The notes beneath the pieces were generated by a model. It was not told the origin of the DNA, ran no database searches, and saw only the letters and a program-made list of their open reading frames with translations. Shown one piece after another: positions 244-28,820 of a stretch of 41,925 nt of DNA. The stretch lies in NCBI GenBank assembly GCA_903862465.1, contig CAIOYH010000190.1, positions 1 to 41,925 on the forward strand, written 5' to 3'. Made by a program: the position numbers and the translations under genes. The stretch comes from an uncultured bacterium. Its GTDB lineage: Bacteria; Bacteroidota; Bacteroidia; Bacteroidales; CAIWKO01. Position 1 is the first letter of the stretch. Every line of letters starts with the position of its first letter.

Positions 244-368
244 TATGATAATTACTTTTTCTTATGCGTAAAGGCTTGCAGACAGCAAACCTTTAGTTTT
301 TTCAAAGCATTGTTATAATGTACGTTACAAATTAATGAAAAGTTAATCGAGACCATCCTTCAATCGGA

Positions 369-622
369 ACGAACGTTCCGACAGAAATATCTAACGTTCC
401 GACAGAAATAACGAACGTTCCGACAGAAATAACGAACGTTCCGACAGAAATATCGAACGTTCCAACAGAAATATCGAACGTTCCGACAGAAATAACGAAC
501 GTTCCAACAGAAATAACGAACGTTCCAACAGAAATAACGAACGTTCCGATTGAAATAACGAACGTTCCGATTGAAATATCTAACGTTCCGAACGAAGTAA
601 CGAACGTTCCGAATGAAATGAT
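369..622. repeat. Tandem array A: 12 units of 21 bp
   Basis: The core CGTTCC starts at 374, 395, 416, 437, 458, 479, 500, 521, 542, 563, 584 and 605, an exact 21-bp period with no indel across 12 units. The consensus unit begins GAACGTTCCGACAGAAATAA. Most units contain the perfect 8-bp palindrome GAACGTTC; two have TAACGTTC. Substitutions concentrate in the half after the palindrome (GACAG, AACAG, GATTG, GAATG). Units are contiguous with no spacers, so this is not a CRISPR array. Because 21 is a multiple of 3, stop-free reading frames through it are expected and are not evidence of coding. Confidence 0.9.
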
Positions 623-5768: not shown

Positions 5769-6040
5769 AATTACATCGACGAAAGGGCAATGCACATCGA
5801 CGCAAAGGCAATGCACATCGACGCAAGGGCAATGCACATCGACTAAAGGGCAGTTCACATCGACGCAAGGGCAATGCACATCGTCGCAAGGGCGATGCAC
5901 ATCGTCGCAAGAACAGTTCACATCGACGCAAGGGCTCTTCACATCGACGCAAGAGCAGTTCACATCGACGCGCAGGCAGTTTAACTCGATGCTTAGGCAG
6001 TTCAACTCGTTGCGCAGCCAATTCACATCGATACAACGAG
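5769..6040. repeat. Tandem array B: 13 units of 21 bp
   Basis: The core ATCG (or CTCG) starts at 5775, 5796, 5817, 5838, 5859, 5880, 5901, 5922, 5943, 5964, 5985, 6006 and 6027, an exact 21-bp period over 13 units with no indel. The consensus unit is close to CACATCGACGCAAGGGCAAT plus one base. The sequence is unrelated to array A although period, length and lack of spacers match. The last units (5985-6030) are the most diverged. Several frames are open through it only because the period is a multiple of 3. Confidence 0.9.
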
Positions 6041-9683: not shown

Positions 9684-9687
9684 CGAA

Positions 9688-12521: not shown

Positions 12522-12552
12522 AACAAAAGTATTAATTTCGGATTTATAACTG

Positions 12553-12560
12553 CAAAATTA
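12553..12560 (-). promoter_or_regulatory. -7 element of the NHL/dodecaheme unit
   Basis: TAATTTTG on the minus strand, a perfect TAnnTTTG, sits 31 bases upstream of the ATG at 12521. The 335-base divergent region 12522-12856 otherwise holds only a second -7 element for the plus-strand gene. Confidence 0.5.
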
Positions 12561-12787
12561 AAAAAATAAATTAAACAGATTGAATTATTGTTCACAGCAA
12601 AATTCTCTCTTCGGAATAATTTGGATTACAGAAATAGGTACTAGAACACCTAAATAACAGATAATATGTTATGTAAATAACTATACTATTTTTTCTGGAG
12701 ATATATGCATTAAAAGTAAGAGTGTTAAGTTTTCTAAATTTTGACAAATATCAGCTAAAACTTTAATGCGCCAACTGTGGAATGTAG

Positions 12788-12795
12788 TATCTTTG
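12788..12795 (+). promoter_or_regulatory. -7 element of the tetraheme gene
   Basis: TATCTTTG, a perfect TAnnTTTG, lies 61 bases upstream of the ATG at 12857. A weak upstream candidate TTTA is at 12762-12765, 22 bases away. It is divergent from the promoter at 12553-12560. Confidence 0.5.
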
Positions 12796-12856
12796 TAAAA
12801 ATTTTCAATTTGCCGGAAAAAGAAAATGAACAATTAAATCTAATACTAACTTAAAA

Positions 12857-13516
12857 ATGAAAACAATGAAAATTAGAACATTTATTTTAGGAGTTGCATT
12901 AGCGACTTTAGCTCAGGTATCCTTTGGGCAGATTACTGGAACACCACATGACATGTCGAGCCATTTGTGGAACACAGGAACCACAAACAAATTATGTGGA
13001 ACATGTCACACACCCCACAACTCTATGACAATATCGCAAGCTCCTTTATGGAGTCACGATACGACAACATCTTCTTACACGATGTACACGAGTGCAGTTT
13101 CTTCAACATTTAATGCTACACCCGGAACAAGACCTGATGGAAATTCAAAATTATGTTTAAGCTGCCATGACGGTACAGTTGCTTTGAATGATTTTATTGG
13201 TGCTCAGGCTCCTGTAAGTGGTACTTTGGGAACAGAATATCCCGGTACAACTACTTTAATAGGAACTAACCTTTCAAACGACCATCCAATATCATTTACA
13301 TATGATGCAACATTAGCCACAACCGATGGTGGATTATACAATCCTGTAACTACACTGTCGGGCTTATCTTCAGGTGGTCATATTGATGATGACATGTTAT
13401 ACAATCACAAAATGCAATGTGCATCGTGCCACAATCCACACAACAACACTTATACAAAATTCCAAAGAATGTCGAACAATGCAAGTCAGCTTTGTTTAAA
13501 ATGTCACAACAAATAA
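12857..13516 (+). CDS. Secreted tetraheme c-type cytochrome
   Basis: 219 aa with a clear signal peptide (ILGVALATLAQVSFGQ). Four CXXCH sites are present: CGTCHTPHNS, CLSCHDGT, CASCHNPH and CLKCHNK, the last at the very C-terminus. Shared landmarks PDGxSxLCLSCHDGTxAL and LSxDHPISFxYDAxLA show that it is a stand-alone version of the N-terminal ~225 residues of the dodecaheme protein encoded divergently at 9830-11521. It has its own promoter and a strong terminator (13545-13570), so it can be regulated apart from both neighbouring cytochrome units. It is probably a periplasmic or surface electron carrier. Confidence 0.9.
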   Translation: MKTMKIRTFILGVALATLAQVSFGQITGTPHDMSSHLWNTGTTNKLCGTCHTPHNSMTISQAPLWSHDTTTSSYTMYTSAVSSTFNATPGTRPDGNSKLCLSCHDGTVALNDFIGAQAPVSGTLGTEYPGTTTLIGTNLSNDHPISFTYDATLATTDGGLYNPVTTLSGLSSGGHIDDDMLYNHKMQCASCHNPHNNTYTKFQRMSNNASQLCLKCHNK

Positions 13517-13544
13517 GATTGTTTTAAAATTAGTAAAGTTAAAT

Positions 13545-13570
13545 AAAAAAGGTGTAATTACACCTTTTTT
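13545..13570 (+). terminator. Rho-independent terminator after the tetraheme gene
   Basis: A perfect palindrome GGTGTAATTACACC is flanked by six A (13545-13550) and six T (13565-13570), 29 bases after the stop codon. The symmetric A and T tracts make it potentially bidirectional. Confidence 0.9.
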
Positions 13571-13587
13571 ATTTTATATCCAACTCA

Positions 13588-13619
13588 TTTGGCGGAACTC
13601 AAATAGTATTTAATTTTTG
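13588..13619 (+). promoter_or_regulatory. Promoter of the porin-cytochrome operon
   Basis: TTTG at 13588-13591, a 20-base gap and AATTTTTG at 13612-13619 (one mismatch to TAnnTTTG) form a good Bacteroidota promoter. Transcription would start at about 13626. This favours the second ATG (13646) over ATG 13625 as the start of the next gene. Confidence 0.5.
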
Positions 13620-13624
13620 CACAG

Positions 13625-14767
13625 ATGGATAAATTTTTATCAAAAATGAATAACTCAGTGTATCGTTATATTCTTTTTTTTGTCTTAGCAGTAATTCTTT
13701 ACTCCTGCAATAAACACGTAGTCCCCCAGGGTACTATAATTTACCCCATTCCGCCTGATACGGCAAGAATTCAATTTCTTACTCGTTATAGTGGTTCGCA
13801 GGATATAGTAAAGCAGTCGAAATTTACCAAATTTATTTTAGGCGAAAACAAACCATTGACCATTTTCAAGCCTTATGGAGTGGCTATCCACAATGGGAAA
13901 ATTTATGTTTGCGATAATGGGATTGCCGGGGTAGAGATAATAGGCTTGGAGAACAAAACCTTCAGTTATTTTGTTCCCAAAGGCAATGGTCAACTAAAAA
14001 GCCCTTTGAATTGCAATCTCGACGAAAAAGATAATTTATATATTGCAGATGGCGATAGAAAACAAATAGTGGTATTTGACAATAAAGGAGCATATTTGAA
14101 TTCGTTTGGGGAGAAGGAGAAGTTTAAACCAACAGACGTATTTATATATGGAAACAAGATTTGGGTTGCAAACGTACTGAACAATAAAATTTATGTTTAC
14201 GACAAAGATTCAATAGGCAAGTTATTATTCACATTTCCGGAAGCGGCACAAGGCGATGAGGACTATTTATATTCTCCTGTAAATCTATTTGTACAAAACG
14301 ATAAAGTATATGTGTCAGACCTCGGTGGATTTAATGTAAAGGTGTTTGACATTAGTGGAAAATATTTGCAGACCATTGGAAGCTTTGGAAATAGTCCGGG
14401 GCAGTTTAGCCGAAATAAAGGAATTTGTGCTGACAAGAATGGCAACATTTATGTGGTGGATGCAAGTTTTGAGAATGCTCAGATATTTAATAAAGAAGGA
14501 AAGCTTTTAATGGCTTTTGGAGGACCTTATAACAGGCAAGGAGATATGTGGCTGCCTGCCAAAATTACGTTGGATTATGATAATCTCGCCTATTTTCAAC
14601 AGTATGTGAATCCTAAGTATAGATTAAAATATATATTGTTGGTCACAAATCAGTACGGTCCCGATAAATTGTCTGTCTATGGTGCTATTGAATTGAATCC
14701 AAATTATAAGGCAGGAGCCAACAATACATCACAACCTATAGAAAAGAAAAAAAATAAAAAGAATTAA
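13625..14767 (+). CDS. NHL-repeat lipoprotein heading the porin-cytochrome operon
   Basis: 380 aa from ATG 13625. ATG 13646 may be the true start, because the promoter would begin transcription close to 13626. A hydrophobic stretch ends in a lipobox (VILYSC), so the protein is probably anchored in a membrane by lipid. Repeated NHL blades follow, including KPYGVAIHNGKIYVCDNG, LYIADGDRKQIVVFDNKG and FSRNKGICADKNGNIYVVDA, a six-bladed propeller fold. The C-terminus is Lys-rich (EKKKNKKN). It is followed after 21 bases by a pentaheme lipoprotein, then by a beta-barrel and a nonaheme gene. The likely role is a scaffold or docking partner in this complex; no enzymatic motif is seen. Confidence 0.85.
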   Translation: MDKFLSKMNNSVYRYILFFVLAVILYSCNKHVVPQGTIIYPIPPDTARIQFLTRYSGSQDIVKQSKFTKFILGENKPLTIFKPYGVAIHNGKIYVCDNGIAGVEIIGLENKTFSYFVPKGNGQLKSPLNCNLDEKDNLYIADGDRKQIVVFDNKGAYLNSFGEKEKFKPTDVFIYGNKIWVANVLNNKIYVYDKDSIGKLLFTFPEAAQGDEDYLYSPVNLFVQNDKVYVSDLGGFNVKVFDISGKYLQTIGSFGNSPGQFSRNKGICADKNGNIYVVDASFENAQIFNKEGKLLMAFGGPYNRQGDMWLPAKITLDYDNLAYFQQYVNPKYRLKYILLVTNQYGPDKLSVYGAIELNPNYKAGANNTSQPIEKKKNKKN

Positions 14768-14788
14768 TAGTTTTATTACGTTTAGAGG

Positions 14789-15358
14789 ATGCTGAAAGGA
14801 TTCAAAAAAAACATAAACTACCTAATTTTATTTGCTCTTGTTGCAGCGTTTACTTGCTGTTCGCCAAAGAATAAGTTTAAGGTACTTTCGTTTTTATTTG
14901 ATGGCGTTCCGCAAGAGGTTGTTTCGGATAGCATTTCAAAACCTATTAAGGCAATTGTTGTTGACACCTCTACTAATAAGGAAGTAGTAGCAGAAATCAA
15001 GACTACAGCTTCGATTCACCCTCCATTTAAGGAGAATAACTGCAAAGCTTGTCATGATCAATACGCTGTAAGTTTCTCTTCCGCTCCTTTACAAAAAATC
15101 TGTTATCAATGTCATGATGATTTTGGAACGAAATTTACGTTTCTGCACGGACCTGTTGCAAGCGGCTATTGTATCGGATGTCATAATCCACACAATGCTG
15201 ATTTTCCCAAACTATTGAAACGAAAAGATCAAGATGTTTGTTTATATTGCCATACTATAAAAGACATTAAACAAAATGAAGTTCATACAGATATTGGAAC
15301 AGCAAATTGTACGGAATGTCATAATCCACACGGTGGGGATAATCAATATTTCTTATAA
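14789..15358 (+). CDS. Pentaheme c-type cytochrome, lipoprotein
   Basis: 189 aa. Its signal peptide ends in AAFTCCSP, consistent with a lipobox cysteine. Five CXXCH motifs lie in the C-terminal half: CKACHDQ, CYQCHDD, CIGCHNPH, CLYCHT and CTECHNPHG. Between anchor and hemes is KVLSFLFDGVP, a motif that I associate with cytochromes encoded beside outer-membrane barrels in Bacteroidota and Deltaproteobacteria; this is recall, not a search. It ends 3 bases before the next ATG, so it is tightly coupled to the beta-barrel gene. The likely position is the inner face of the outer membrane, feeding electrons into the barrel-bound complex. Confidence 0.85.
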   Translation: MLKGFKKNINYLILFALVAAFTCCSPKNKFKVLSFLFDGVPQEVVSDSISKPIKAIVVDTSTNKEVVAEIKTTASIHPPFKENNCKACHDQYAVSFSSAPLQKICYQCHDDFGTKFTFLHGPVASGYCIGCHNPHNADFPKLLKRKDQDVCLYCHTIKDIKQNEVHTDIGTANCTECHNPHGGDNQYFL

Positions 15359-15361
15359 TTC

Positions 15362-17371
15362 ATGCTCATGAGATTATTATTAGCCATATTGTTTGTTTCT
15401 ATTGTTTCACATGAGGTGTATTCACAAGGATATCGGGGGCGTGTCCGAGATTTGAATCCCTACACCGATGCAATCTACGACGGAAGACCAAAAGGAAAGT
15501 TCTTCGCATTAAACCATTTTGGCGGAGAATTAAAATTGAAAGGCTTTTATAGAGATCAAATCACATGGCGAAACGGCGTAAAGGATAAACAACAATCCAC
15601 AAATATTTCAGGAGGACTTCATTTTAAAGCGGGTGGTTATTTTTGGAATCCGAGCTTCCTTTTATTGGATGTTGACGCTGAATATAATCCCGAAAGCCAT
15701 CATGAACGCTACTTGATTATGCCGGATTTGGGTGAGGTGAACACCATGAAAAATCTCGATATTCGAGCTGTATTTCTGAATCAGAAGAAGGTTACCTTTG
15801 GTGGCAATCTTACTTTTAATGAGAATTACAGCAACAGAGAGAACTTGTCAGATATTCGGTCGAGAAGCAAAAATTATGGTGCTTTTTTGAACATCGTGAA
15901 TAAGTATGCGCCTATTTCAGTGAACTATGATGTGGGGAAATGGTATCAAAAAGAAATACAAACAGGGAGAACTATAAATTGCAATCAGAGTGAGTTGAGA
16001 AGCCGAATACAAACTCGTTTCTCAAAATGGGATTTGCATGATTTGACGTATTCTCATGCTGTTTTTGCACGTGATGATTATGATTTATACAAAAGTAAAA
16101 GCATTACGGATCAACTTATTTTGAACGATGAAGTGCATTTTGATAAAAATAAACACTACCGTCTTAATGTTATCACGAGTGCTTTCGGTAGAAAAATTAG
16201 TTCCAATTATACGCGAATCAGCAATCAAGAAAACTTTATGGCAGAGATGCCTAAGAATTTTAACCTGAATGCCACTTATGCCTTTTATCACATCGAACAA
16301 GATTGGCAAAAACTGAATCAACATAGCATAAATGCTGTTCTTGGACATAAATTGTTCAATAGCTTAAGTACAGATGTTTTTGGCGGATACAATTATTCTT
16401 CCCACAGTCAGTTCAAAGGATCCGAAAGCAAAATAGGTTTTGACGTGCGCTATACGAAAAAGATTTTTTGGAAGGGCAATCTTTGCTTATCCTATAAATT
16501 TGCATATAACCATAAAGACCACGAAAGTTCCTCCACCAGTATCAATGTAATTAATGAGGAATATACATTGACAGATGGCAAAATAACCTTAATTGACAAA
16601 CCGTATATTGAACTTTCGACTTTCAATGTTACGGATATCACAGGAACTATCTTCTATCAAAACAATTTGGATTATATGCTCATCAAGCAAGGGAATTATT
16701 TAGAAATCCAACGTATTCCAGGAGGACAAATCACAAACGGTGGGACGGTTTATATCAGCTATACGTATGTGCAGCCGGGCAATTACCACTATAATTCCGC
16801 CTCGCATGGCTTTGGAGCACGACTTGCTTTCTTTAAAAACATTCTAGAGTTTTATTACAATTATAATGAGCAGGATTATATCAAATTGGTTCGAACTGAG
16901 TTTCTGCAATTAAACACCTTTACACAAAATACCTTGGGAATGCGTGTCAATTATAAGTTTGTTTCGGGTGGCGTGGAGTATGATGATTACAAAAGCAATA
17001 TTGTTCCTTATTATTCCACCAATTACTTTTTGCAATTGCAAGGACACTTTTTCAAGCATTTGGAAGGCTCTTTAAACGGGAATTTGCGGTATATGACTTT
17101 GACAAACGGGCTGATTAAACAAAAGTTTGCAAGTGTTTCGGCTATGCTTTCTTATGCCATACATTCTCGAACAAAGATTAGTATTCAGGGAAGTTATATG
17201 CACGAGGATTATCAAAGTGTGAATTTAGACTTGTTGATGGCAGGGGCAGACGTCACCACTTCGATACGGAAAATGTATTTTTCTTTAGGCTATCAGTTAT
17301 ATAGACGCAATTATTTAAGCGAACAAATCAATTATAATGGTGGATATGTTCAAATTTCACGTAAGTTTTAA
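15362..17371 (+). CDS. Outer-membrane beta-barrel of a porin-cytochrome complex
   Basis: 669 aa with a signal peptide (LLAILFVSIVSHEVYSQ). The mature part is a long series of amphipathic strands with alternating aromatic residues and short turns, and it ends in aromatic Phe (VQISRKF), the usual C-terminal signature of a BAM-inserted barrel. No plug domain or TonB box is visible. It lies between a pentaheme lipoprotein gene (3 bases before) and a nonaheme gene (15 bases after). This order matches porin-cytochrome systems, in which a barrel sheathes cytochromes to pass electrons across the outer membrane. The role is inferred from context and fold; the sequence itself is not a recognised MtrB or OmbB. 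Confidence 0.75.
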   Translation: MLMRLLLAILFVSIVSHEVYSQGYRGRVRDLNPYTDAIYDGRPKGKFFALNHFGGELKLKGFYRDQITWRNGVKDKQQSTNISGGLHFKAGGYFWNPSFLLLDVDAEYNPESHHERYLIMPDLGEVNTMKNLDIRAVFLNQKKVTFGGNLTFNENYSNRENLSDIRSRSKNYGAFLNIVNKYAPISVNYDVGKWYQKEIQTGRTINCNQSELRSRIQTRFSKWDLHDLTYSHAVFARDDYDLYKSKSITDQLILNDEVHFDKNKHYRLNVITSAFGRKISSNYTRISNQENFMAEMPKNFNLNATYAFYHIEQDWQKLNQHSINAVLGHKLFNSLSTDVFGGYNYSSHSQFKGSESKIGFDVRYTKKIFWKGNLCLSYKFAYNHKDHESSSTSINVINEEYTLTDGKITLIDKPYIELSTFNVTDITGTIFYQNNLDYMLIKQGNYLEIQRIPGGQITNGGTVYISYTYVQPGNYHYNSASHGFGARLAFFKNILEFYYNYNEQDYIKLVRTEFLQLNTFTQNTLGMRVNYKFVSGGVEYDDYKSNIVPYYSTNYFLQLQGHFFKHLEGSLNGNLRYMTLTNGLIKQKFASVSAMLSYAIHSRTKISIQGSYMHEDYQSVNLDLLMAGADVTTSIRKMYFSLGYQLYRRNYLSEQINYNGGYVQISRKF

Positions 17372-17386
17372 TCTAAAACGACAGCT

Positions 17387-18262
17387 ATGAGTGGTGTTCA
17401 ATTATTCTTTTATGTGTTGTTTTTGGGTTTCGGATGGAATTCGCCTCAACTCAAACAAACGAAGGCGGAGTGCTTGGATTGTCATAAGCAGCTTGTCGCA
17501 GAAAAAGTGATACATCCCGTGGCTGAAGGTTGCGACAATTGCCATGTTGCTAACGGCAAGGAGCATCCTCAACCAAAAATAATTGGATTTTCGTTGGCTG
17601 ATACGGTTCCGAATTTATGTTTTACATGCCATGATGAATTGAAGACTACCATACAGTCGTCGGCAGTAACACATGGGGCGGTGCGCTCAAAAAAATCGTG
17701 CACATCTTGCCATTCACCTCACTCATCGCCTAACGATAAAATGCTTTTGGCTGATGGAAAAGACTTATGTTTGAGTTGTCATAATAAAATTATTACTACC
17801 GATAGTATTCAAATTCCAAATATGAAATCCCTGCTCGATAATAGCAAAGTGATACATGGTGCCATAGATGCAGGAGGATGCATTGCTTGTCATAATCCTC
17901 ACGCTTCGAATCATCAGTTTCTGTTGAAAGAAAACTTCCCGCAAGGAATTTATGCCGAAGGAAAAACAGAAAATTATACTTTATGTTTTACATGCCACGA
18001 TAGTCAACTATTGACCGAAGCCACCACAACAAGTGCCACTCAATTTAGAAATGCAGACAAGAACCTGCATTTTGTGCATCTGCAAGGCAAAAAAGGTAGA
18101 GCTTGCACGGTCTGCCATAATGTGCATGGGTCAGCTAATATGCATCTATTAAATGATGCTACAACTTTTGGCAATTGGCAGATGCCCATCCGCTATAAAC
18201 CTGTGGAGGGAGGCGGTTCGTGCTACCCGGGATGCCATGGGGAAAGAGCGTACAAGAATTAA
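17387..18262 (+). CDS. Nonaheme c-type cytochrome, last gene of the porin-cytochrome operon
   Basis: 291 aa with a short N-terminal hydrophobic segment (VQLFFYVLFLGFGW), a weak signal peptide with no lipobox. Eight CXXCH sites are seen (CLDCH, CDNCH, CFTCH, CTSCH, CLSCH, CIACH, CFTCH, CTVCH), plus a ninth CX3CH site, CYPGCHG, eight residues from the C-terminus. Repeated CHxPH(A/S)S segments mark the doubled CXXCH type. The C-terminal CX3CHG resembles those of the 563-aa and 1761-aa cytochromes. Expected to be the periplasmic or external electron partner of the barrel; which side cannot be decided here. Confidence 0.85.
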   Translation: MSGVQLFFYVLFLGFGWNSPQLKQTKAECLDCHKQLVAEKVIHPVAEGCDNCHVANGKEHPQPKIIGFSLADTVPNLCFTCHDELKTTIQSSAVTHGAVRSKKSCTSCHSPHSSPNDKMLLADGKDLCLSCHNKIITTDSIQIPNMKSLLDNSKVIHGAIDAGGCIACHNPHASNHQFLLKENFPQGIYAEGKTENYTLCFTCHDSQLLTEATTTSATQFRNADKNLHFVHLQGKKGRACTVCHNVHGSANMHLLNDATTFGNWQMPIRYKPVEGGGSCYPGCHGERAYKN

Positions 18263-18361
18263 TATCCAAATTCCAAGGTTTGCCACTACGAAGAAAACCA
18301 CTAAGGCACAAAGACACTAAGACATAAAGCGACTTGGAGCTTGGTATTTGGAATTTAATCC
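18263..18361. repeat. Dispersed CACTAAG / CTTGGAGCTTGG repeat fragment
   Basis: This short gap between converging genes contains CCACTAAGGCACAAAGACAC followed by TAAGACATAAAG and CTTGGAGCTTGGTATTTGGA. The same fragments occur around 6266-6371 and, diverged, around 35207-35380. It looks like a genome-wide intergenic repeat. No terminator hairpin is evident. Confidence 0.5.
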
Positions 18362-19312
18362 TTACAATATCTCCAACTCAAACCATCCTTTTCCCGTTTC
18401 GTCGGGGTTATACACTTTAAGCATTTTGTTGGTTATGTCGCCTAGGTTGGTGGCAAGGATGGTGATACGGGTGCCCGGCAATACCAATTGATACAATGTT
18501 TCGGGCACTTTTCCCTTCATCAGTGTTATATAAAAAATCAAAGCGGTTATGCCTTTGTTGGTTATTTTTAGTTGACTTGTGGCAGCAAAAGTACGTTTGC
18601 AAATAAATTTCGACTTTAATGCTTTCACATGTCCTGTGAAAACAACTTGTTCCCGACGCATGATGGCTTCCTTGTCGAAATAAGGTGTCAATTTTTTCGG
18701 ATTAGAGGCATATTGACTTATGAAAATGCCCAAATTGGCATATTGCGCAATGCACATCGCCACCCGCGCCTGCTCCAATGTATTGCTTAAATTTGCCACC
18801 ATAGATTTGTTGCCATCCTGACCGGAATTTGCTGTTGATATCATTGTATAAAAATCTTCAATATCTGCTTTAACTGTAGCCAACAAAGGGTCGCTGCCAA
18901 TGGCTATGCCAAGTGCTGCCACGTGTTCTATACGCAGCAGTTGCTTGCCTTTTTGGAACGGTTTGCGAAACTTTGGCAGCAGTTTTTTATACTCAGGCGT
19001 GCCTCTGCGATACACGTTTTGAAACGCTATGTCCCAGTCGCGAATCTTAGTGCTGCTAAGCTCTTTCAGCAGTTGTTTACGGCTCAACGTGCTACCTTCT
19101 TTGATACCGCCTTGCACATCCCATTTGGCATAAGCCTCTTCGTAAGCCTCGTGAATCGGATGATAGGAAGCATAGAGCGCAGCCACAAAAGGTATGTCAA
19201 TTCCGGCAAAAAGAGCGGCATCGTGATAGATGGATATCTGTTTTGCTTTGGAGTAACTGCCTTTGGTGGCATTCAAAATTGGATTGACTATAAAACGCCA
19301 GAGTTTGCTCAT
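18362..19312 (-). CDS. Hypothetical protein, 316 aa
   Basis: I do not recognise the family. There is no signal peptide or membrane segment. The N-terminal two thirds look mostly helical (IYHDAALFAGIDIPFVAAL, then basic stretches KFRKPFQKGKQ). The C-terminal ~90 residues are richer in beta-strand (GTRITILATNLGD, GKGWFELEIL) and may form a separate small domain. It is alone on the minus strand between the porin-cytochrome operon and a repeat-rich spacer, with a perfect -7 element 49 bases upstream. Its position near cytochrome genes does not by itself imply a link. Confidence 0.7.
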   Translation of the reverse strand: MSKLWRFIVNPILNATKGSYSKAKQISIYHDAALFAGIDIPFVAALYASYHPIHEAYEEAYAKWDVQGGIKEGSTLSRKQLLKELSSTKIRDWDIAFQNVYRRGTPEYKKLLPKFRKPFQKGKQLLRIEHVAALGIAIGSDPLLATVKADIEDFYTMISTANSGQDGNKSMVANLSNTLEQARVAMCIAQYANLGIFISQYASNPKKLTPYFDKEAIMRREQVVFTGHVKALKSKFICKRTFAATSQLKITNKGITALIFYITLMKGKVPETLYQLVLPGTRITILATNLGDITNKMLKVYNPDETGKGWFELEIL

Positions 19313-19360
19313 TTCTACATGGATTTATAAAAAAAGGAATTGATTTTTCTATATTTTCGG

Positions 19361-19368
19361 CAAAGATA
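19361..19368 (-). promoter_or_regulatory. -7 element of the 316-aa gene
   Basis: TATCTTTG on the minus strand, a perfect TAnnTTTG, 49 bases upstream of the ATG at 19312. Confidence 0.5.
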
Positions 19369-19536
19369 TAATATAGTTTTGATACACGGGCTATATTTTT
19401 CATAATAATATATCCTGATTATCTGATGATGAGCTATTGTCAGCGACAAATTACACAAAATGAGAATGTTTTTTCATATTACAGTTTGAAAATAAATAAA
19501 TTTATATGAATGTATCGTGAGCTAAAATAGGAACAA

Positions 19537-19823
19537 TTAAATTCATGTGGATATATATATTCGCGTCATAAGAATAAATGAATACACGTGTAGATATAGC
19601 TTCACGATATGTGAATTGATATGTACATATGTCCACATAACATAATGAAACGAAAACAACCGCGAACACATGTATATATACAATAACAAATATATATGTA
19701 ATGCGTACACGTGTATATATATATTAGCTAATAGCGATTTAATGTGCACACATGTATTCATGTGTTATCATTATGTGGATAAATATGAACACATCATTTT
19801 ATCTTTTATCTCGTCACAAAAAA
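19537..19823. repeat. 41-bp-periodic array of ACAYRTGT palindromes
   Basis: Five perfect or near-perfect palindromes occur exactly 41 bases apart: ACACGTGT at 19584, ACATATGT at 19625, ACACATGT at 19666, ACACGTGT at 19707 and ACACATGT at 19748. Degenerate copies fit the same phase at 19543 (TCATGTGG) and 19789 (ACACATCA). The core is usually followed by ATATATA, while the rest of each unit is diverged. A further palindrome TTCAC-GATAT-GTGAA at 19601-19615 sits half a period after one core. The region is AT-rich, and the open frames crossing it have no coding character. It could be a multi-site operator or iteron-like binding region. Confidence 0.75.
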
Positions 19824-19925
19824 ATAAAACGCCTCATTTGATATTATTCTCTCCGAAAAACATGTAAAATTATATCGCTACGCGGAATATCGAACGGCAA
19901 TTATAGCCGATGGTCTCAATGAATC

Positions 19926-20015
19926 AAATTGATGATGTACCATTGGGACAAAGCAAGTCATATATCCAACAATAGCATTGAAAGTACAATGAAATGGATT
20001 TATTTATCGCGATAG
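19926..20015 (+). pseudogene. Possible IS66-type transposase remnant
   Basis: One frame from 19926 encodes YHWDKASHISNNSIESTMKW followed by IYLSR and a stop. IS66-family TnpC proteins carry a block of the form WDKL..Y...L.NN.iEN.mRp.alGRKN near the C-terminus, and the spacing of WDK, SNN and IE fits. The fragment has stops on both sides and no inverted repeats were found. The match is short and could be chance. Confidence 0.3.
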
Positions 20016-20055
20016 CAAAGAAGAAATATGAAAAAGATTGCGTTAGATTTCTCCG

Positions 20056-20760
20056 CTAATCTTTTATGCAACGAATGGAAAGTCCGTAGTGTTTTTTATA
20101 CGTGAAACGGCAAAAATGCGGCAAGCTAAACGTTAGATATCTGCACCACACCAAATCGGTGTCATATTCGCAGGGCGTGGTGGACCATAATTCGGTATAA
20201 AGCCCCAAAAATGTATAACAACTATGATATTGTCTGCCTGCCGGCAGCGCATTAAATCCGCTTTCGGAAGGAGATATTTCAGAGTAATCGCCATTTCGGG
20301 TATTGATAGCCATCACATTTGGGCTGTTCCAATGTTCGGTTCCCGATTCTTTCAGTTTGCCGCCTGCCACCATCTTTCCGCCCAAAAAATTGCACAACAT
20401 TTCCCACTCCAAATCCGTGGGCACATGGGTTCCGGTGGGGCACACCTTGCGGTCGTCAACCACCACATAATAATTATACATACGTCCATATTCCTGAGCA
20501 ATCGCTTCATTGTTGTTGTAGTTGCAATAGGCAGGGGTTTTCAATTTTGTCCATGCAATGGTATCCGTAACCAATACGATGGGGTCGCCATTATTATATT
20601 TGGTCACTTTCAGGTTCTCTTTCAACCACATCTGGTCGCCAATGGTAACGGTATGATATACGTTGCCGTCGATATCCACTATAACGCCTTCAGTTTTTGT
20701 CTGCGAAAAACATACGATTGGAAGGAGCAAAGAGGCTAATAATATTAAAAGGTTTTTCAT
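20056..20760 (-). CDS. Secreted Fibrobacter major paralogous domain protein (TIGR02145-like)
   Basis: 234 aa from the ATG at 20760; the frame is open further upstream, but that part overlaps the end of the previous gene and lacks a signal peptide. The signal peptide is NLLILLASLLLPIVCFSQ. The body shows the hallmarks of the Fib_succ_major family: IDGNVYHTVTIGDQMWLKEN followed by LKVTKYNNGDPI, GRMYNYYVV, CPTGTHVPTDLEWEML, SPSESGFNALPAGRQY and a C-terminal SIRCIKD. The family is abundant in surface proteins of Fibrobacteres and Bacteroidota and has no established biochemical activity. It lies 31 bases after the giant cytochrome gene in the same direction, probably the third gene of that unit. 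Confidence 0.85.
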   Translation of the reverse strand: MKNLLILLASLLLPIVCFSQTKTEGVIVDIDGNVYHTVTIGDQMWLKENLKVTKYNNGDPIVLVTDTIAWTKLKTPAYCNYNNNEAIAQEYGRMYNYYVVVDDRKVCPTGTHVPTDLEWEMLCNFLGGKMVAGGKLKESGTEHWNSPNVMAINTRNGDYSEISPSESGFNALPAGRQYHSCYTFLGLYTELWSTTPCEYDTDLVWCRYLTFSLPHFCRFTYKKHYGLSIRCIKD

Positions 20761-20791
20761 ATCCTGCTGATTTATTTTTTTAATATTATGG

Positions 20792-23700
20792 TTAATTATA
20801 TGCGGGATTATAAGATTTTCCACCACCATGAGAGGTTCCATGGCAGGTTACATTGCAAGTGTTTGCAGCGGTTCCGGCAGCATGCACAAAGGCGGCTTGC
20901 GTGTTTGTGGTTACTGCCGTGATGCAGGCTCCCCCTGTTTGATTTCTGCTAAAATTAATAAGATGCAACTGCTCGCTTCCGTGCGAATCATGGCAAATAT
21001 AGCATCCTTCCTGAGTTTTATTCGCCACGTGATAATAATGATATCCATAGCGCGAGCTTGTGTTGCCAGAGATATAAGAAGCCGCTTGATGGCATTTGGT
21101 ACAGAAATCGGTGGTGGAAGTATTCACGGCATTATGCACAGATTTATATCCTGAGTTACCCCCTGTTCCGGCATCTAAAATATGCAGGTTTTGCGAGCCA
21201 TGCGGACCGCGACCATAGCCCGCCGTAGCATTTTGGTTGTCGTTATGGCAATCCGTACAATACATTCTTGAGGTATAAGAATAACCCGTTTGGAAGGTAG
21301 CTGCATTGATGTTTAAGTTAGTCCCGGCGGCTATTATAGGATGAAAAGAAGCATTGCTTGGATTAAACTCTTGTGCCATATCGCGCGAATCGGCAATTTG
21401 GGTGTTGGTTCCGCCTGTAGTCAGTTTCTTGAGTCCATCCACGGCATCAGCAGTTCCTGACCATCCCGCAGGCAAATAGCTGGGCAAAGTGGTGTAGCTA
21501 GAGTGGCATTTAAAACAAACTTGATATTCATAGGTGGCGTTATCCAGATAGGTGAATCCGGTGGGTGCGCCTGCACCCGTGTATATAGGGTTCACACCCG
21601 AAGCACCTATCAATTCGTTATAAATGGTGGGTGCCACGGTAGCCGTGTATGCTTTTGCACTATGCGGATTATGGCAATCCACGCATTCCACATGACGGTT
21701 GGCGCCACCAAAGGAGGTGCCCAAATATTCTTCATTGGTGTGTTTTCTGTACGATGCCGTTACGTCGTGCTTTCTAATTGCCGTTGCGGTATTGGTGTTT
21801 GCAAACGAAAGGTGAACCTTAACTGATGCTTCTCCACCCGCACCATGACACGAAAAACAGAAGCCTTCTTCCTCATTCGTCACATCAGTACCGGTGCCCA
21901 AACCTGTGTAATCGTATGGTGCCAACAAGGTGCTTTTGTTCGAACCATGTCCATTATCATGACAATCCATGCAGGTGTAAGGATGGGCTTTGTGTGCCGA
22001 GGCAGTCCACAAAGTTTTATTAAAGATAGGAACAGTAACATTATCAGAAAACGGAGTAACATCGCCACCTGCCCCATCAGCATCGTGACAATTTATGCAG
22101 AAGTTTTCTACCGAAGATTGAACTAAGGGATTATAGGTAATCACTTTCAGGTAGCCCGAATCAGGGTCCATCAGCTTCACGGCGCCTCTCATGTGGTCGC
22201 CCATATAATGACACAAAATACAATCCGTAGCATTGGGCACCGAGCCCGTTACGTGATGAGAAGTGCGCTTAAAATCTCCACCCAAACCCGTACCATTACC
22301 ATTGGCATCCACAATTTGTCTTCTCCCTCCCGAAGGACCTACGCCTGCTTTATCCGTAATTGCTTTATGACAATCCAAACAATTGGTTTGTGCATAAAAA
22401 GCATCTTCATGCGGATGGCAGGTGATGCAAGTCTGCGTTGCAGGAACGTGACGAGCATCGCTAGTAACACCCGAAGTATTGGAGTAATGATCTGTTGCGG
22501 TATGGCATGCTTCGCAAACGCCTGTAAACGGACTAGATGCTGCACCATAATCTGAGCCGGAAGCCCGAGCCACAAACACCACGGGTTTCAAACCGCTATT
22601 AGGAGTATTGATAGTGTCGCGAATAAGCATGATGTTGGTCAACCCAGCTTTATGCGTGATATGACAGGTGATACAACTCATCCCTTCGTGAACCAAACTC
22701 CTACGAGGAGCTAAGGAAACGTGGCATTTCTTGCACAAATCATCACTATAATTCATGCGAAGAATATAACCATCCGTAGAAGTGGAATTATGAGGCTGAT
22801 GACAACTGGAACATTCTACTTTGGCAGTTAATAACGTCATGGGAGTTTGAGGACTAGAAAAGAAACGTGGGTCAGAACCATTATACGTAAGCCCAACCGG
22901 ATGGCTACCGATATTTACACCGGGATTATCAACATAACGACCTACATTGCGCACCGAATGACATTCTTTACATAGCGCATCACCATCATTCGGCATACGC
23001 AAAAAGTTGGGAGAAGCAACCGAATGTTGATTATGGCAGGTGGAACAGATAAAATGATTATTGTCTAAACGCGTAAGCATATCCGTGTTGGCAGGAAGGC
23101 TTGCGCCATATTTATAATTCACCGCTAAGGCATCCCAAGTATGCGATGTTCCACTAACACCGGGAACCGCTTTCATAGCATTATCCATCGGGTTTTGATA
23201 CGCAGTACCTGCCGGATTATGGCAACTGATGCACAAATTGGCATTGCCATTCACAATGGCAAGTGCGGTTCCGTAAGATGTATGGGTGATATGACATTGG
23301 CTGCAACTATTATGAGGTACAGTTACGCTCACAGCTAAACTGGGTGTAGAACTTGTGCTGCACGAATTGGTCGCATATACGGTAATATTACCATTCTGTC
23401 CACCAATGCCGGTAGTAACCACTATAGAATTAGTTCCATTTCCTGATGTGATTGTCCATCCGGTAGGCACTGTCCAAGTGTAACTAGTTGCTCCGGTCAT
23501 TGCTGTAATGCTATAGAGAACTCCCGTTTGCATTGGAGCAACAACGGGAGCACCTGTAATTGTGCCCGGAGAACCTAAAAGCGGAATTAAGGTTATGGTT
23601 TTGGCATACGAACTGCTTACGCATCCTGTAGTGCTGTTTCTGACTGTTACTGTATAATTATAGGTTCCTCCAATGGCTCCGGCAGGTACAACTAATACAA

Positions 23701-26077
23701 TCTGACTTGCAATCAACGTTGCATTTGTAACATTAATAAACCCCTGTGTCAATGCCGTTGCATCATACACTATACTATATTGATTAGGAGTTCCGGTTGT
23801 TGCACTGTAGGTTAGATTTGCTGATGTAACACCAGAACATATCGTAGGATTTGTACCCAATGTAATGGTTGGTATCGCGTTAAGAGTAACTACTGCGCTG
23901 CCCTGAGTTCCCCAACATGTTCCTGCATCACGAGCTCTAAAGTAATACGTACCATTCGCAGCAACCGTTTGGCTTGAAGATGGAGTGGTTATTGAAGTTC
24001 CATTTGTTGTGGTGTTTTGCCAATAAATAGTGCCGCCAACTCCTCCTGATGCATTTAATGTGGCACTAGTTGCGCAAAAACTTCCACCACCTGTAACGGT
24101 AACTGCAGTAGGGGTTGTTCCCATAGTAACCGTAGCGCTACCTTGAGTTCCCCAACAACCTAAAGCGGTTCGGGAACGGAAATAATACGTGCCCGAAGCA
24201 CTCACGCTTTGCGAGCTTGATGGCGTTGCTGTTGAAGTTCCTCCTGTGGTGGTATTTTGCCAGTAAATAGTGCCGCCTGTTCCTCCACTTGCGGTTAAAG
24301 TTACGCTAGGCACACTACAAAAATTACCTCCTCCGGCAACAGTCACAGCAGTTGGTAATGGATTAATAGTAACTGTTGCACTTCCTTCAGCACCCCAACA
24401 TGTGCCATTAAGTGCCCTGAAATAATAGGTGCCACTAGCGGCAACCGCCTGACTTGAAGAAGGGGTTGCTGTTGAAGTTCCACCGCTAGTAGTATTTTGC
24501 CAGTAAATAGTTCCGCCTGTGCCGCCTGTTGCTGTTAAGGTAGCGGTTCCGCAAAACGTACCACCGCCACTAACCGTAACAGCAATGGGAACAGTGGTGA
24601 TGGTTACTGTTGTGCTTCCTTCAGTTCCCCAACAAGAAGTTCCATCGTAAGCTCTATAATAATAGGTTCCACTTGCCCCCACCGTTTGGCTTGAGGAAGG
24701 TGTTGCAGTGGATGTTCCTCCACTTGTGGTATTTTGCCAATATATTGTTCCGCCTGTTCCTCCACTTGCGTTTAACGTAGTAGTGCCTCCGCAAAATGTA
24801 CCTCCTCCACTCACTAATACTGCCGTAGGTGCAGAACTTAAAGTCTGCGTTCCACTGGCAGTGGTGGGTCCACCTGCTAAAATTGCAGTACTTGTCATAT
24901 CTGTTGAATTCGAACCGCTAACAGTAAGGGTATTCCCAACACCAACAGTGGATGCAATATCCGCAGTAATCCAGAAATAATAGGTGCCAACAGGAATATT
25001 CAACGAAAAAGCTGTGAACGTTTGTATCCCCGGACCGGTAGGGGTTACGTCTGTTGCCAATAAGGTAGCCGAAGCTAAACTATTTGTACTGTTCCACCAT
25101 ATTTTAAAATTTGTTATATCAGAAGCAACGTAGGAGCCTGTTGTGGTAAACTGAAAATTTGTTAATGTGCCCGTAGTTCCACTACTGATAATATTAAAAG
25201 CATGAATTGGTACATTTAATGAAGATGCACAAACAGAAGCTGCGCTTACGGATGTGGTAGGGTTCGATACAGTAAGAGTAGGGGGAACATACATAGGTAA
25301 GCTCATTGCTGACATTGCCCAACGTATTTGATTCGCAGGTGTAATAGCAGAGGTAGTAGCATTGTCTGTTGTATTTGCACCTGAAATTGTACGTTTTGCT
25401 ACTTCAGTTTTCCAACCTATGGTACCATTATTATTTGAGTTATTACCTCCTGAAGTCCAATTTGCATTAATTGTATAGGTGGGCACTGTTGTATTTGCGC
25501 AATACATACTTGAAATATATACCGCCTGTTGATTTGCATTCACAGCCATTGCAGCACTTAATTGTGTAGGACCGCTTCCGGCAGCAGTACCAATACCGGT
25601 TCCTACTGTATAGCTTGCAGGAGCCTGATCAACTCCGGCAAATACAGAATACCATACCGAAATATTTGCCTGTGTATTAGCTAAAGTAACAAGTAGGGAT
25701 CGGGAGGTGCCATCCATAACCGCATTATCTTTTAAATAATATAACCAGGTGTGTGTCCTCCCGCTCGTGGTACCATTTGTTGTAGCTAATGTCAAGGTTA
25801 CGCCACCATACGAAATAGTTGTCGGGTTTGCTTGTGTTGCAGAACCAGTTGTAGTATTTGTTATGCCAACAATAAGCATGCGATTTAAACCCGCTGCAAC
25901 AGAAAGTGAATAGCCTGTGCACGTACCGGATACTTGATCATAGGCTTTTGTCCAAGCAATGGGTTGGGTAATTTGCGCAAAGCTCGGATTACTACCAACA
26001 AAGATTAACCCAACTATTATTTGAAATACACCTTTCAGTATATTCATAGATTTTTTTGAGATATAATAATGTCTCAT
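20792..26077 (-). CDS. Giant surface multiheme cytochrome with Ig-like repeats (20 heme sites)
   Basis: 1761 aa. A signal peptide (FQIIVGLIFVGSNPSFAQ) follows either ATG 26077 or ATG 26047. Residues ~35-900 form a stalk: an N-terminal beta-sandwich region, a second beta domain, four near-identical Ig-like repeats of ~80 residues (GGGTFC then IYWQNTT then GTYYFRA and CWG), and two PKD/Ig-like domains. Residues ~918-1761 carry nineteen CXXCH sites and a twentieth, CX3CH (CNVTCHGTSHGGG), near the C-terminus. The C-terminal heme region aligns with the last part of the 563-aa cytochrome (HVECxDCHNxHxAK, MYCTDCH, GPHGS, CHDSHG, HLINF). No T9SS sorting domain is apparent at its own C-terminus. It follows the 909-aa NHL/T9SS gene by 13 bases. 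The combination suggests a long heme wire displayed on an Ig stalk outside the cell, by inference. Confidence 0.85.
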   Translation of the reverse strand: MRHYYISKKSMNILKGVFQIIVGLIFVGSNPSFAQITQPIAWTKAYDQVSGTCTGYSLSVAAGLNRMLIVGITNTTTGSATQANPTTISYGGVTLTLATTNGTTSGRTHTWLYYLKDNAVMDGTSRSLLVTLANTQANISVWYSVFAGVDQAPASYTVGTGIGTAAGSGPTQLSAAMAVNANQQAVYISSMYCANTTVPTYTINANWTSGGNNSNNNGTIGWKTEVAKRTISGANTTDNATTSAITPANQIRWAMSAMSLPMYVPPTLTVSNPTTSVSAASVCASSLNVPIHAFNIISSGTTGTLTNFQFTTTGSYVASDITNFKIWWNSTNSLASATLLATDVTPTGPGIQTFTAFSLNIPVGTYYFWITADIASTVGVGNTLTVSGSNSTDMTSTAILAGGPTTASGTQTLSSAPTAVLVSGGGTFCGGTTTLNASGGTGGTIYWQNTTSGGTSTATPSSSQTVGASGTYYYRAYDGTSCWGTEGSTTVTITTVPIAVTVSGGGTFCGTATLTATGGTGGTIYWQNTTSGGTSTATPSSSQAVAASGTYYFRALNGTCWGAEGSATVTINPLPTAVTVAGGGNFCSVPSVTLTASGGTGGTIYWQNTTTGGTSTATPSSSQSVSASGTYYFRSRTALGCWGTQGSATVTMGTTPTAVTVTGGGSFCATSATLNASGGVGGTIYWQNTTTNGTSITTPSSSQTVAANGTYYFRARDAGTCWGTQGSAVVTLNAIPTITLGTNPTICSGVTSANLTYSATTGTPNQYSIVYDATALTQGFINVTNATLIASQIVLVVPAGAIGGTYNYTVTVRNSTTGCVSSSYAKTITLIPLLGSPGTITGAPVVAPMQTGVLYSITAMTGATSYTWTVPTGWTITSGNGTNSIVVTTGIGGQNGNITVYATNSCSTSSTPSLAVSVTVPHNSCSQCHITHTSYGTALAIVNGNANLCISCHNPAGTAYQNPMDNAMKAVPGVSGTSHTWDALAVNYKYGASLPANTDMLTRLDNNHFICSTCHNQHSVASPNFLRMPNDGDALCKECHSVRNVGRYVDNPGVNIGSHPVGLTYNGSDPRFFSSPQTPMTLLTAKVECSSCHQPHNSTSTDGYILRMNYSDDLCKKCHVSLAPRRSLVHEGMSCITCHITHKAGLTNIMLIRDTINTPNSGLKPVVFVARASGSDYGAASSPFTGVCEACHTATDHYSNTSGVTSDARHVPATQTCITCHPHEDAFYAQTNCLDCHKAITDKAGVGPSGGRRQIVDANGNGTGLGGDFKRTSHHVTGSVPNATDCILCHYMGDHMRGAVKLMDPDSGYLKVITYNPLVQSSVENFCINCHDADGAGGDVTPFSDNVTVPIFNKTLWTASAHKAHPYTCMDCHDNGHGSNKSTLLAPYDYTGLGTGTDVTNEEEGFCFSCHGAGGEASVKVHLSFANTNTATAIRKHDVTASYRKHTNEEYLGTSFGGANRHVECVDCHNPHSAKAYTATVAPTIYNELIGASGVNPIYTGAGAPTGFTYLDNATYEYQVCFKCHSSYTTLPSYLPAGWSGTADAVDGLKKLTTGGTNTQIADSRDMAQEFNPSNASFHPIIAAGTNLNINAATFQTGYSYTSRMYCTDCHNDNQNATAGYGRGPHGSQNLHILDAGTGGNSGYKSVHNAVNTSTTDFCTKCHQAASYISGNTSSRYGYHYYHVANKTQEGCYICHDSHGSEQLHLINFSRNQTGGACITAVTTNTQAAFVHAAGTAANTCNVTCHGTSHGGGKSYNPAYN

Positions 26078-26090
26078 GCTAGACTATTTT

Positions 26091-28820
26091 TTAATGAGTT
26101 AAAATTAATTTGGTAGTTTTTGTCATATCTGGTAGCAATAGTTTGATGAAATAAACCCCTGAAGCCATTCCTCCTAAATTGATACGTTCGGAATATTTTG
26201 TTGAATTCAAATTCTTAGCATAAACTTCTTGACCAATAGAGTTGACTATGTCTATTTTAATTGGTTTAGCGTTAGGATTGTTTATTTCTAATGTAAAAAT
26301 ACCATTCGTAGGATTTGGATAAATTGAGACAGAAACAGAAGAATTCACTTCTTCAATAGACGTTGTAATTAGATTTATGGTGTCATAAACAATCACCTCA
26401 CTGCAAGATGCATTCGATGCAGTCAAACTCACATAATAGGTCCCCTCACTACTATAAGTGTGGGTAGGATTCGCCAGATTGCTTGTTTGCCCATCGCCAA
26501 AACTCCAAAGATAGGTGTCAGCATTCTGTGTAACATTATTGAACGTACAAGTTGTATTGTTGACTGTATAATTGAATTCGGCAATAGTAGGAATATTTAT
26601 TGTAACAACAGCACTGCCACTAAAAGTATAATTACTACATATCATATCACTAAGAGAAATTACTTGATAAGTCCCAGGTGTGCCTATTTCAATCACATAG
26701 GGCGAACTTATTATATTATTCTCTGTAACAGGAACACCATCAACAGTATAAGTAAGGTTCCAAGGCGGACTCCCAATTAGGTCGAAAGATATATCAGTTG
26801 TTTGACCTTCACAAATAGCGATATTTTCATTTGTAATGGCAGCCGTTGGGGCAGGATTAATATTTATAACAGCATCACCTGGAAGAATTTCCCCATAACA
26901 ACCTCCCGTTGAAACTGAAACTAAGCTATAGGTGCCGGCTTGAGATGTTGGAATGGAATAATTATTAGCAGAAATTCCGGTGAAGAAGATAGTATCTGTC
27001 CCATTGACAGTACAACTGAAATTAAATGGTCCGATGCCGCTCAGTATAAAATCCAAGTTTGCTGTTTCGCCACTGCATAGCGTTGAGGTGTTGGGCACGA
27101 TGGCTGCTGTTGGGATAGGGTTGGTGCTTACCTGAGCTGTTCCAGAAAAAGTTCCTACTTCACAATTGGCATCCGAAATGGCAGATACCTGATAGGTTCC
27201 GGCAGTTGATATTGTAAGTGAATAATTATTATCAAGAATATTATTCACACTAATCGGGTTACCACTATCAACTGTGTATGTTAAATTCCAAGGTGCAGTT
27301 CCTGTTAAATGAATTGGTATATCTGTGCTTTGCCCAGCACATAAAGTTATAGTTGAATTACTGATAAGGGCAGTGGGTGCTTGATTTATTGAGACATTTG
27401 CCATTCCTGTAAAATCTGTTCCATTACAACCTCCGCCATTTACCGAAGTAAGCGTATATACTCCGGAAGTAGCACCAAGAATAGCATAGGAATCAGCATA
27501 AATATTATTTATAGTTGTTGGACTTAAACCATCAACCGTATATGTGAAACTATAAGGTTTGGAGCCTGAAAAATTAACAGGCACATCTATTGTAGTGCCC
27601 GAACAAGTAGAAATAGTTTGGTTACTTAGCGATGCCGTGGGCGTAGGGTCAACAATTACATTGGCACTCCCCGTAAAGCAAGCACCCGTGTTGGTAGCAT
27701 CATTTAATGCACTAACAGTATATCTCCCTGCATTAGTTGTGGTAATAGTATAAGGATTGTCTGTTACATTTGAAATAGTGGTAGGAGAGGTGCCATTTAT
27801 TGTATAAGTGAATGTCCAGGGTGCTGTTCCGGTAAACGAAATAGGAATATATGTAGTATCGCCGTCGCAAATACTATGCGTGCTAACAGGGATGTTTGAT
27901 GTAGGCAATAGATTCGTGATACTATAAACTTCCATGGCTCCATTGTTCAACGAACTCACCCACAATTTTTGATTTGCGTCAAAATCAATATCCATCGGTA
28001 CATTCAATTCGCCATTGTTGGTGCCGTACTGACCAAACTTTGTAATAAAAATACCATTAGGTTTAAATACACTTATCGCCCCCTGAAAATCATCCGAAAC
28101 ATAGATATTGCCACATTGCCCAATGGTCATTCCTTGTATGCGATAGAACTTTCCATCCGTGTTTCCATACCCACCGAAGGTGCTGATAAGAGTTCCAATG
28201 AGGTCGAATATTCTAATTTCAGCATGCAAATTAAAACTTGTTCCAACGCCTCCATGTTCTGAAACAATGATGCGGTTGTTTTGTCTATCAAATGCTATAC
28301 ATCTAGGCGCAAGTAAAATACCCGAACCGATGGTTCTGATGATGTTTCCGCCGAAATCCATCACAAGGACTTTATTCGTAATGCCATCCACTACATACAG
28401 CAAATTATCAGGACTTGTAACCATATCTGAGGGGAAAATAATACCCGAATAAATTACCGTTTGATTGCCGTCTCCATCAATTCTTGTAATTTTATTGTTT
28501 TTGCCATCGCCAACGAAGAGAATATTACCATCGCTAAACGCCAAAGAAACAGGTTTCCCTATATAGTCAAGCGTTCCAAGATAATTCCCTGAATTATCAA
28601 ACTTCTTGATTTGTTTAGTAAAATCATCGGCAACGAAAACAATTCCCGAAGTGTTTATGGCAATTCTCGATGGAGCTTTTAAATCAGTAGTTATACTCGC
28701 TTGATGAGCAAAATCAGCAGAAGTGGTCTGCGCTTTGATTACCGTAGAGCATGAAAAAATAAGCATCCAAACGAAAATAAAATGCCTTACATAGTGTGTC
28801 ATGAACATGTTTTTATTCAA
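26091..28820 (-). CDS. T9SS-exported NHL propeller protein with Ig-like repeats and a PKD domain
   Basis: 909 aa. Signal peptide (FIFVWMLIFSCSTVIKAQ), then a six-bladed NHL propeller (about residues 40-310; ITTDLKAPSRIAI, LLYVVDGITNKVLVMD, GNIYVSDDFQGAISVFKPNG). Five Ig-like repeats of ~85 residues follow (TLCAGQSTDIPIHLTGTAPW-type), then a PKD domain (YLWSFGDGQTSNLANPTHTY), and last a type A T9SS sorting domain (SIYPNPTNGIFTLEI to the C-terminus). The sorting domain predicts secretion through the type IX system and attachment to the cell surface. It is the first gene of a unit with the 20-heme cytochrome 13 bases downstream, preceded by a -7 element. It parallels the NHL proteins heading the other two cytochrome units but is the only one with a T9SS signal. 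Confidence 0.9.
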   Translation of the reverse strand: MNKNMFMTHYVRHFIFVWMLIFSCSTVIKAQTTSADFAHQASITTDLKAPSRIAINTSGIVFVADDFTKQIKKFDNSGNYLGTLDYIGKPVSLAFSDGNILFVGDGKNNKITRIDGDGNQTVIYSGIIFPSDMVTSPDNLLYVVDGITNKVLVMDFGGNIIRTIGSGILLAPRCIAFDRQNNRIIVSEHGGVGTSFNLHAEIRIFDLIGTLISTFGGYGNTDGKFYRIQGMTIGQCGNIYVSDDFQGAISVFKPNGIFITKFGQYGTNNGELNVPMDIDFDANQKLWVSSLNNGAMEVYSITNLLPTSNIPVSTHSICDGDTTYIPISFTGTAPWTFTYTINGTSPTTISNVTDNPYTITTTNAGRYTVSALNDATNTGACFTGSANVIVDPTPTASLSNQTISTCSGTTIDVPVNFSGSKPYSFTYTVDGLSPTTINNIYADSYAILGATSGVYTLTSVNGGGCNGTDFTGMANVSINQAPTALISNSTITLCAGQSTDIPIHLTGTAPWNLTYTVDSGNPISVNNILDNNYSLTISTAGTYQVSAISDANCEVGTFSGTAQVSTNPIPTAAIVPNTSTLCSGETANLDFILSGIGPFNFSCTVNGTDTIFFTGISANNYSIPTSQAGTYSLVSVSTGGCYGEILPGDAVININPAPTAAITNENIAICEGQTTDISFDLIGSPPWNLTYTVDGVPVTENNIISSPYVIEIGTPGTYQVISLSDMICSNYTFSGSAVVTINIPTIAEFNYTVNNTTCTFNNVTQNADTYLWSFGDGQTSNLANPTHTYSSEGTYYVSLTASNASCSEVIVYDTINLITTSIEEVNSSVSVSIYPNPTNGIFTLEINNPNAKPIKIDIVNSIGQEVYAKNLNSTKYSERINLGGMASGVYFIKLLLPDMTKTTKLILTH

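Follow-up and report, generated by a model that had tools for sequence, protein, structure and literature searches.

Gene-linked arrays of helically phased palindromes in a Bacteroidales genome: a possible new class of protein-DNA assembly site

The palindromic array and its surroundings

The window analysed in this work, by which we mean the whole stretch of 41,925 nt, contains a non-coding spacer that holds an array of short palindromes, located upstream of a minus-strand gene for a protein of 316 amino acids and about 230 bp away from the start of that gene (Table 1). The array is surrounded by a large cluster of genes for multihaem CXXCH cytochromes and NHL-repeat proteins (positions 9830-28820), which is partly conserved in another genome (G042). 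A tmRNA gene, with the tag peptide GNDYNYALAA, is found at positions 9316-9684, and a protein made up of repeated DUF4379 treble-clef zinc fingers is encoded at positions 4054-5616, where its gene carries a 198-bp intragenic repeat and lies just left of a 21-bp array.

Table 1. Coordinates of the array, its cores, the adjacent gene and related arrays in the window.
Feature	Position	Strand	Basis or remark
316-aa array-linked protein	18362..19312	-	adjacent array in 59/64 assessable relatives; structure models; no family match
41-bp-period palindrome array, ~7 registers	19543..19830	.	autocorrelation and Tandem Repeats Finder
degenerate in-phase core TCATGTGG	19543..19550	.	
core ACACGTGT, full palindrome	19584..19591	.	
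core ACATATGT, full palindrome	19625..19632	.	
core ACACATGT	19666..19673	.	
core ACACGTGT, full palindrome	19707..19714	.	
core ACACATGT	19748..19755	.	
degenerate in-phase core ACACATCA	19789..19796	.	
21-bp x 12 array, same genome-wide class	368..619	.	sister to arrays in L102 and L150 (L150 near array-linked gene)
21-bp x ~12 array, same genome-wide class	5773..6031	.	

The five sites matching ACAYRTGT follow one another in exact steps of 41 bp, i.e., four helical turns, as the original prediction had stated, and the motif occurs nowhere else in the window. The two weaker in-phase sites that it had also listed, TCATGTGG and ACACATCA, are real, though degenerate. Dinucleotide shuffling of the intergenic spacer, repeated 20,000 times, never gave an evenly spaced chain of more than two members, as compared with the five that are observed, which rules out chance in AT-rich DNA and bears out the earlier statement that this is not a random AT-rich spacer. 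The autocorrelation of the array at lag 41 is 0.59 versus a shuffle maximum of 0.44, and a 41-bp period was also called by Tandem Repeats Finder at positions 19662-19757. A genome-wide search for the same core at this period, which had been proposed as a check, identified the array in the window as the sole instance in 4.23 Mb; no other pair of ACAYRTGT sites spaced by 41 bp, either exact or with one mismatch, was detected in this genome.

It had further been claimed that the DNA between the cores is simply diverged, only site identity and phase being kept. This is contradicted by the finding that 107 of 198 non-core positions (54%) match at lag 41, as against a mean of 30% and a maximum of 39% at other lags, and the part concerning phase was too strong, since the DNA between the cores retains the period too. 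As the non-core DNA is also 41-bp periodic, the array represents a 41-bp tandem repeat that has decayed, its dyad being the best-preserved part. A CRISPR array was considered and rejected, as the core is of only 8 bp and the intervening sequences are similar at the 41-bp lag, whereas near-identical repeats of >20 bp with unrelated spacers would be expected of CRISPR. As a separate observation, an apparent Cas12a-type CRISPR array (repeat end AATTTCTACTATTGTAGAT) at L066:1-1297 directly adjoins a 42-bp array of the present class.

The adjacent protein, its family and their arrays

The original prediction overlooked the main point concerning this array, which is that it belongs with the adjacent gene. 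The 316-aa protein encoded by this gene belongs to no Pfam or NCBIfam family, and it gave no meaningful-score match in PADLOC, including its anti-phage defence models, or in PHROGs. Relatives of the gene were likewise not found on known plasmids or phages by tblastn, or on viral contigs that were scanned. An AlphaFold2 model of the protein (mean pLDDT 90) predicts two domains. The N-terminal domain (residues ~11-218), which when modelled alone with 61 sequences reached a pLDDT of 96, is predicted to be a long-helix bundle with two helices of ~60 residues each, and the C-terminal domain (residues 222-316) to be jelly-roll/cupin-like. In fold searches the C-terminal domain matched PirA (Z 9.6, 94 residues, rmsd 3.1) and the Bacillus Ena subunits (Z 9.3, 85 residues, rmsd 2.6), and for the N-terminal bundle the best match was to McpS (Z 9.6 over 189 residues, rmsd 3.4), a score within the helical-bundle background. 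A match to EspA among solved structures, with E 2e-4 using the first profile, fell to E 0.5 with a larger profile and for this reason was taken as helical bias. No helix-turn-helix or other DNA-binding fold is recognisable in the model, and the isoelectric points of array-linked proteins span 5.1-9.6.

Relatives of the gene were sought in the genus, the order, the family f67 and the phylum. In the order, 17 of 393 genomes had matches, and in f67 13 of 120 did, often with multiple copies where the family is present. A helically phased array was detected within ~900 bp of 59 of the 64 family genes that had enough flank, these being from 29 genomes; in this count a 21-bp match at L064 (0.37 only) was judged spurious and the 42-bp array of L023 was counted instead. 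The 55 arrays analysed have periods of 42 bp (n=32), 41 bp (n=20), 43 bp (n=2), and 21 bp (n=1). Within the sampled stretches of the present genome, eight of the nine ORFs of the family lie next to arrays (Fisher p 2e-6), all of which have periods of 41-43 bp. The array nearly always lies 5' of the gene in the order to which the window belongs and more often 3' of it in f67, and because both placements are found, the arrays are not simply leaders.

The period follows the N-terminal domain, as arrays of 41-43 bp persist in relatives that lack the jelly roll or possess a different C-terminal domain. One such protein, at L193, combines the family N-terminal part with a CarboxypepD_reg-like C-terminus and has a 43-bp array, and members from f67, which matched the profile mostly via the N-terminal part, have arrays of 41-42 bp. 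Conversely, the protein at L026, which was matched through its C-terminal domain only, has a 21-bp array. Another array-linked protein of the present genome, at L149:11621-12331, has a weak match to PQLLE (NCBIfam NF052641; E 3.7e-5), which is below the cut-off, and PQLLE is not the family of the 316-aa protein.

The phase of the sites is also conserved in a relative, a test that had been set by the original prediction. In the ortholog from G003, which shows 56% protein identity, ACAYRTG is found at positions 2762, 2844, and 2885, all in 41-bp phase, and an AACGT remnant is present in phase at 2925; no other ACAYRTG occurs in ~700 bp.

Each array of the family has its own palindrome. In L028 it is GGGACGTACGTCCC, recurring exactly every 42 bp, and further private palindromes are GTGGTACGCGCGTACCAC in L038, TCCAAACGTTTGGA in L046, and ACCTATCAGTGATAGGT in L082. 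The N-terminal domains of the proteins at L028, L038, L039, and L041 are up to 77% identical, yet their palindromes are unrelated and the 42-bp period is the same. When protein similarity was compared with array similarity in a test of co-evolution between protein and core, the overall correlation was weak (Spearman 0.16). The presence of unrelated palindromes beside proteins with such similar N-terminal domains indicates that either the binding specificity changes very rapidly or the binder is something different. The arrays could be bound by a separate, general DNA-binding protein, either nucleoid-associated or regulatory, and the adjacent protein would merely be a regulated product. This is in keeping with the absence of a DNA-binding fold from the model of the adjacent protein and with the many arrays that are orphan, but we consider it unlikely, as a single general binder fails to explain either the private palindrome of each gene or the coupling between period and protein family.

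Arrays of the same class throughout the genome

Arrays of this kind are numerous in the present genome. In 1.10 Mb of its sequence (the sampled stretches include L086-L125, L146-L165, and L186-L205), 89 of the 103 arrays detected have periods of ~20-21 bp, 41-43 bp or multiples of these, corresponding to ~8 per 100 kb. The periods most often recorded are 21 bp (n=53), 42 bp (n=17), 20 bp (n=6), 43 bp (n=5), and 41 bp (n=3), and a few 63-bp arrays lie inside one giant ORF. Periods of 20, 41, and 43 bp are not multiples of three, and a coding repeat is thereby ruled out. The whole genome has perhaps roughly 300 such arrays, a figure which is an extrapolated estimate and not a count. Eight arrays were detected in 400 kb of G224, which was sampled by stretches that included known loci. 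Of the genomes that lack the family, G005 has two arrays in 140 kb, and none was detected in 62 kb of G018, 100 kb of G024 or 60 kb of G060.

The genes that adjoin these arrays form recurring families, and many of the arrays lie beside genes for other uncharacterised helix-plus-beta proteins. Several groups of ~190-230 aa, whose C-terminal beta domain was judged by eye from the sequence, are mostly associated with arrays of 20-21 bp, and in other groups of ~240-350 aa some members resemble CarboxypepD_reg or PQLLE.

For several arrays the genome contains further copies of the unit at other sites, some of them gene-linked and some orphan. In three sister 21-bp arrays (L105:10990-11440, L123:4571-4960, and L160:19581-20000) the core ACATCGATGT is constant and the spacers are variable. 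On one side the sister copies have ~80 bp in common, extending up to a terminator-like hairpin, after which they diverge. Additionally, at the end of the syntenic cytochrome operon in G042 (L215:4053-5390), the proteins of which are 38-54% identical, a different array-linked gene is present together with a 42-bp GTCGAC array, and it may thus be that gene and array travel or are exchanged together.

Both the dispersed sister copies, with their common array, leader and flanking hairpin, and the different array-linked gene at the G042 locus would be accounted for if array and gene constituted a mobile or MITE-like element, the repeats being its ends or a neutral minisatellite. However, the protein is without a transposase-like fold, and neither terminal inverted repeats nor target duplications were apparent on viewing the alignments of the sister copies. 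A neutral minisatellite, moreover, would not retain dyads and multiples of 10.5 bp while its spacers decay. We regard an explanation of this kind as rather improbable.

Dyad symmetry, interpretation and relation to known systems

The symmetry of the units was assessed in the 55 family arrays by permuting the unit columns. A significant short dyad was found in 31 of them, for 27 of which the p value was the lowest attainable (~0.01), and none was significant by this test in the other 24. Conservation is raised by 0.16-0.21 at 2-6 bp from the dyad axis and lowered elsewhere; complementarity is 0.64 and 0.68 for the innermost base pairs and extends to ~7 bp from the axis. This pattern is that of a site at which a dimer binds double-stranded DNA by two half-sites, rather than that of a looped RNA hairpin, in which the loop needs no pairing; the complementarity of the innermost pairs thus argues against the latter.

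These observations also bear upon the possibility that the arrays function through their transcripts, as tandem RNA hairpins that are bound by the protein or take part in termination. The palindromes are able to fold, a terminator-like hairpin lies ~80 bp from the sister arrays, and in L028:1283-1315 and L045:2130-2165 the unit nearest to the gene merges with an extended hairpin of this type. Even so, an action as RNA is quite improbable. It gives no reason for periods corresponding to two or four turns of B-DNA (20-21 and 41-43 bp, with hardly any of 31 or 52 bp), the symmetry is continuous through the centre without a loop, and a stable hairpin would need a longer core than ACAYRTGT. Furthermore, no terminator was found in the spacer in the window, and a search with Rfam detected no known structured RNA at the array, its matches in the window being limited to the tmRNA.

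The explanation that we favor, with a probability of about 0.5, is that the feature is a gene-linked array of binding sites for protein dimers on double-stranded DNA, at which a cooperative complex is formed, the binder most likely being the adjacent protein. Each dyad would bind one dimer, and the period of ~42 bp would place all of the dimers on one face of the helix, thereby permitting cooperative assembly. The long-helix N-terminal domain is what accompanies the 41-43-bp period, the C-terminal beta domain being exchangeable. At the least, the complex would exert autoregulation on the gene or else mark and condense its chromosomal site, and the orphan sister arrays would offer proteins of the same kind additional places to bind. 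The main weakness of this explanation is that the adjacent protein has no known DNA-binding fold and that proteins up to 77% identical in the N-terminal domain (such as those at L028 and L041) occur beside unrelated palindromes.

A broader reading, which we put forward tentatively, is that orthogonal protein-array pairs are numerous in several lineages of Bacteroidota, families of small helix-plus-beta proteins each assembling on their own dyad arrays of two- or four-turn period, with orphan arrays of the same unit at other sites acting in trans. The palindromes would turn over faster than the proteins while symmetry and phase persist, and the whole may represent a new chromosome-organising or self-recognition system. 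If these are protein-assembly sites, then these genomes would have many phased and sequence-private nucleoprotein platforms (perhaps three hundred here), some of them paired with protein families that are unnamed in the databases searched. Gene control or chromosome organisation in Bacteroidota would thereby gain a new level. The platforms would also supply DNA-array binders that are orthogonal to one another, and they could serve as a test case for recognition sequences that change while symmetry and spacing persist.

Among characterized systems, the geometry is closest to known plasmid elements. The centromere of the F plasmid, sopC (parS-F), which belongs to the type Ia ParABS systems, consists of a 43-bp unit repeated twelve times, every unit having an inverted repeat of 16 bp that is bound by a ParB dimer, and it adjoins the genes of its binder (PMC9178275, PMC6238139). 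The arrays of the present family resemble it in being tandem, in having dyads and in their period of 41-43 bp (four turns). They differ from it in that the array here is chromosomal and multi-copy, the dyad is different for each gene, and the adjacent protein is unrelated. Pfam searches of the neighbouring genes detected cytochromes and Fib_succ_major and no ParA or ParB beside the array; the only ParB_N gene that was found in the genome sits on contig C111. The iterons of plasmid replication origins are direct repeats of ~20 bp (two turns) located beside the gene for their binding protein. Here no Rep gene is present, none of the neighbouring genes scanned matching a Rep family, and many different arrays occur in one chromosome. 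Despite a geometry very close to that of sopC and of ~20-bp iterons, an iteron-type origin or a plasmid-style partition site is extremely improbable for one of perhaps three hundred phased arrays that is chromosomal, lacks an adjacent Rep, ParA or ParB gene, lies on a different contig from the single ParB-family gene, and is linked to a gene without known plasmid or phage relatives. Of the original proposal of a cooperative binding array, serving as an operator, origin or partition site, the origin and partition roles are thus not sustained, whereas palindromic sites on one face of the helix are well supported by the periods of 41-43 bp in the family and 20-21 bp in the genome, by the dyads and by the phase in the ortholog.

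In the open PMC text, the only description of such arrays in Bacteroidetes that was found is that of BrickBuilt, and earlier descriptions elsewhere are possible. BrickBuilt is a 23-nt minisatellite (~two turns) within a MITE of Porphyromonas gingivalis, which is present as dispersed intergenic copies and for which BLASTn at the time gave no match beyond that species (PMC4596501). Its likeness to the present arrays lies in dispersed copies of intergenic two-turn tandem repeats in a Bacteroidetes genome. It differs in being a single repeat family within an inverted-repeat element, with no linked protein family and no 41-43-bp class; sister arrays here have limited flanks in common. The geometry alone has precedents, whereas the system formed by gene and array together is widespread in Bacteroidota and apparently undescribed, and it has the appearance of a new kind of site for protein-DNA assembly.
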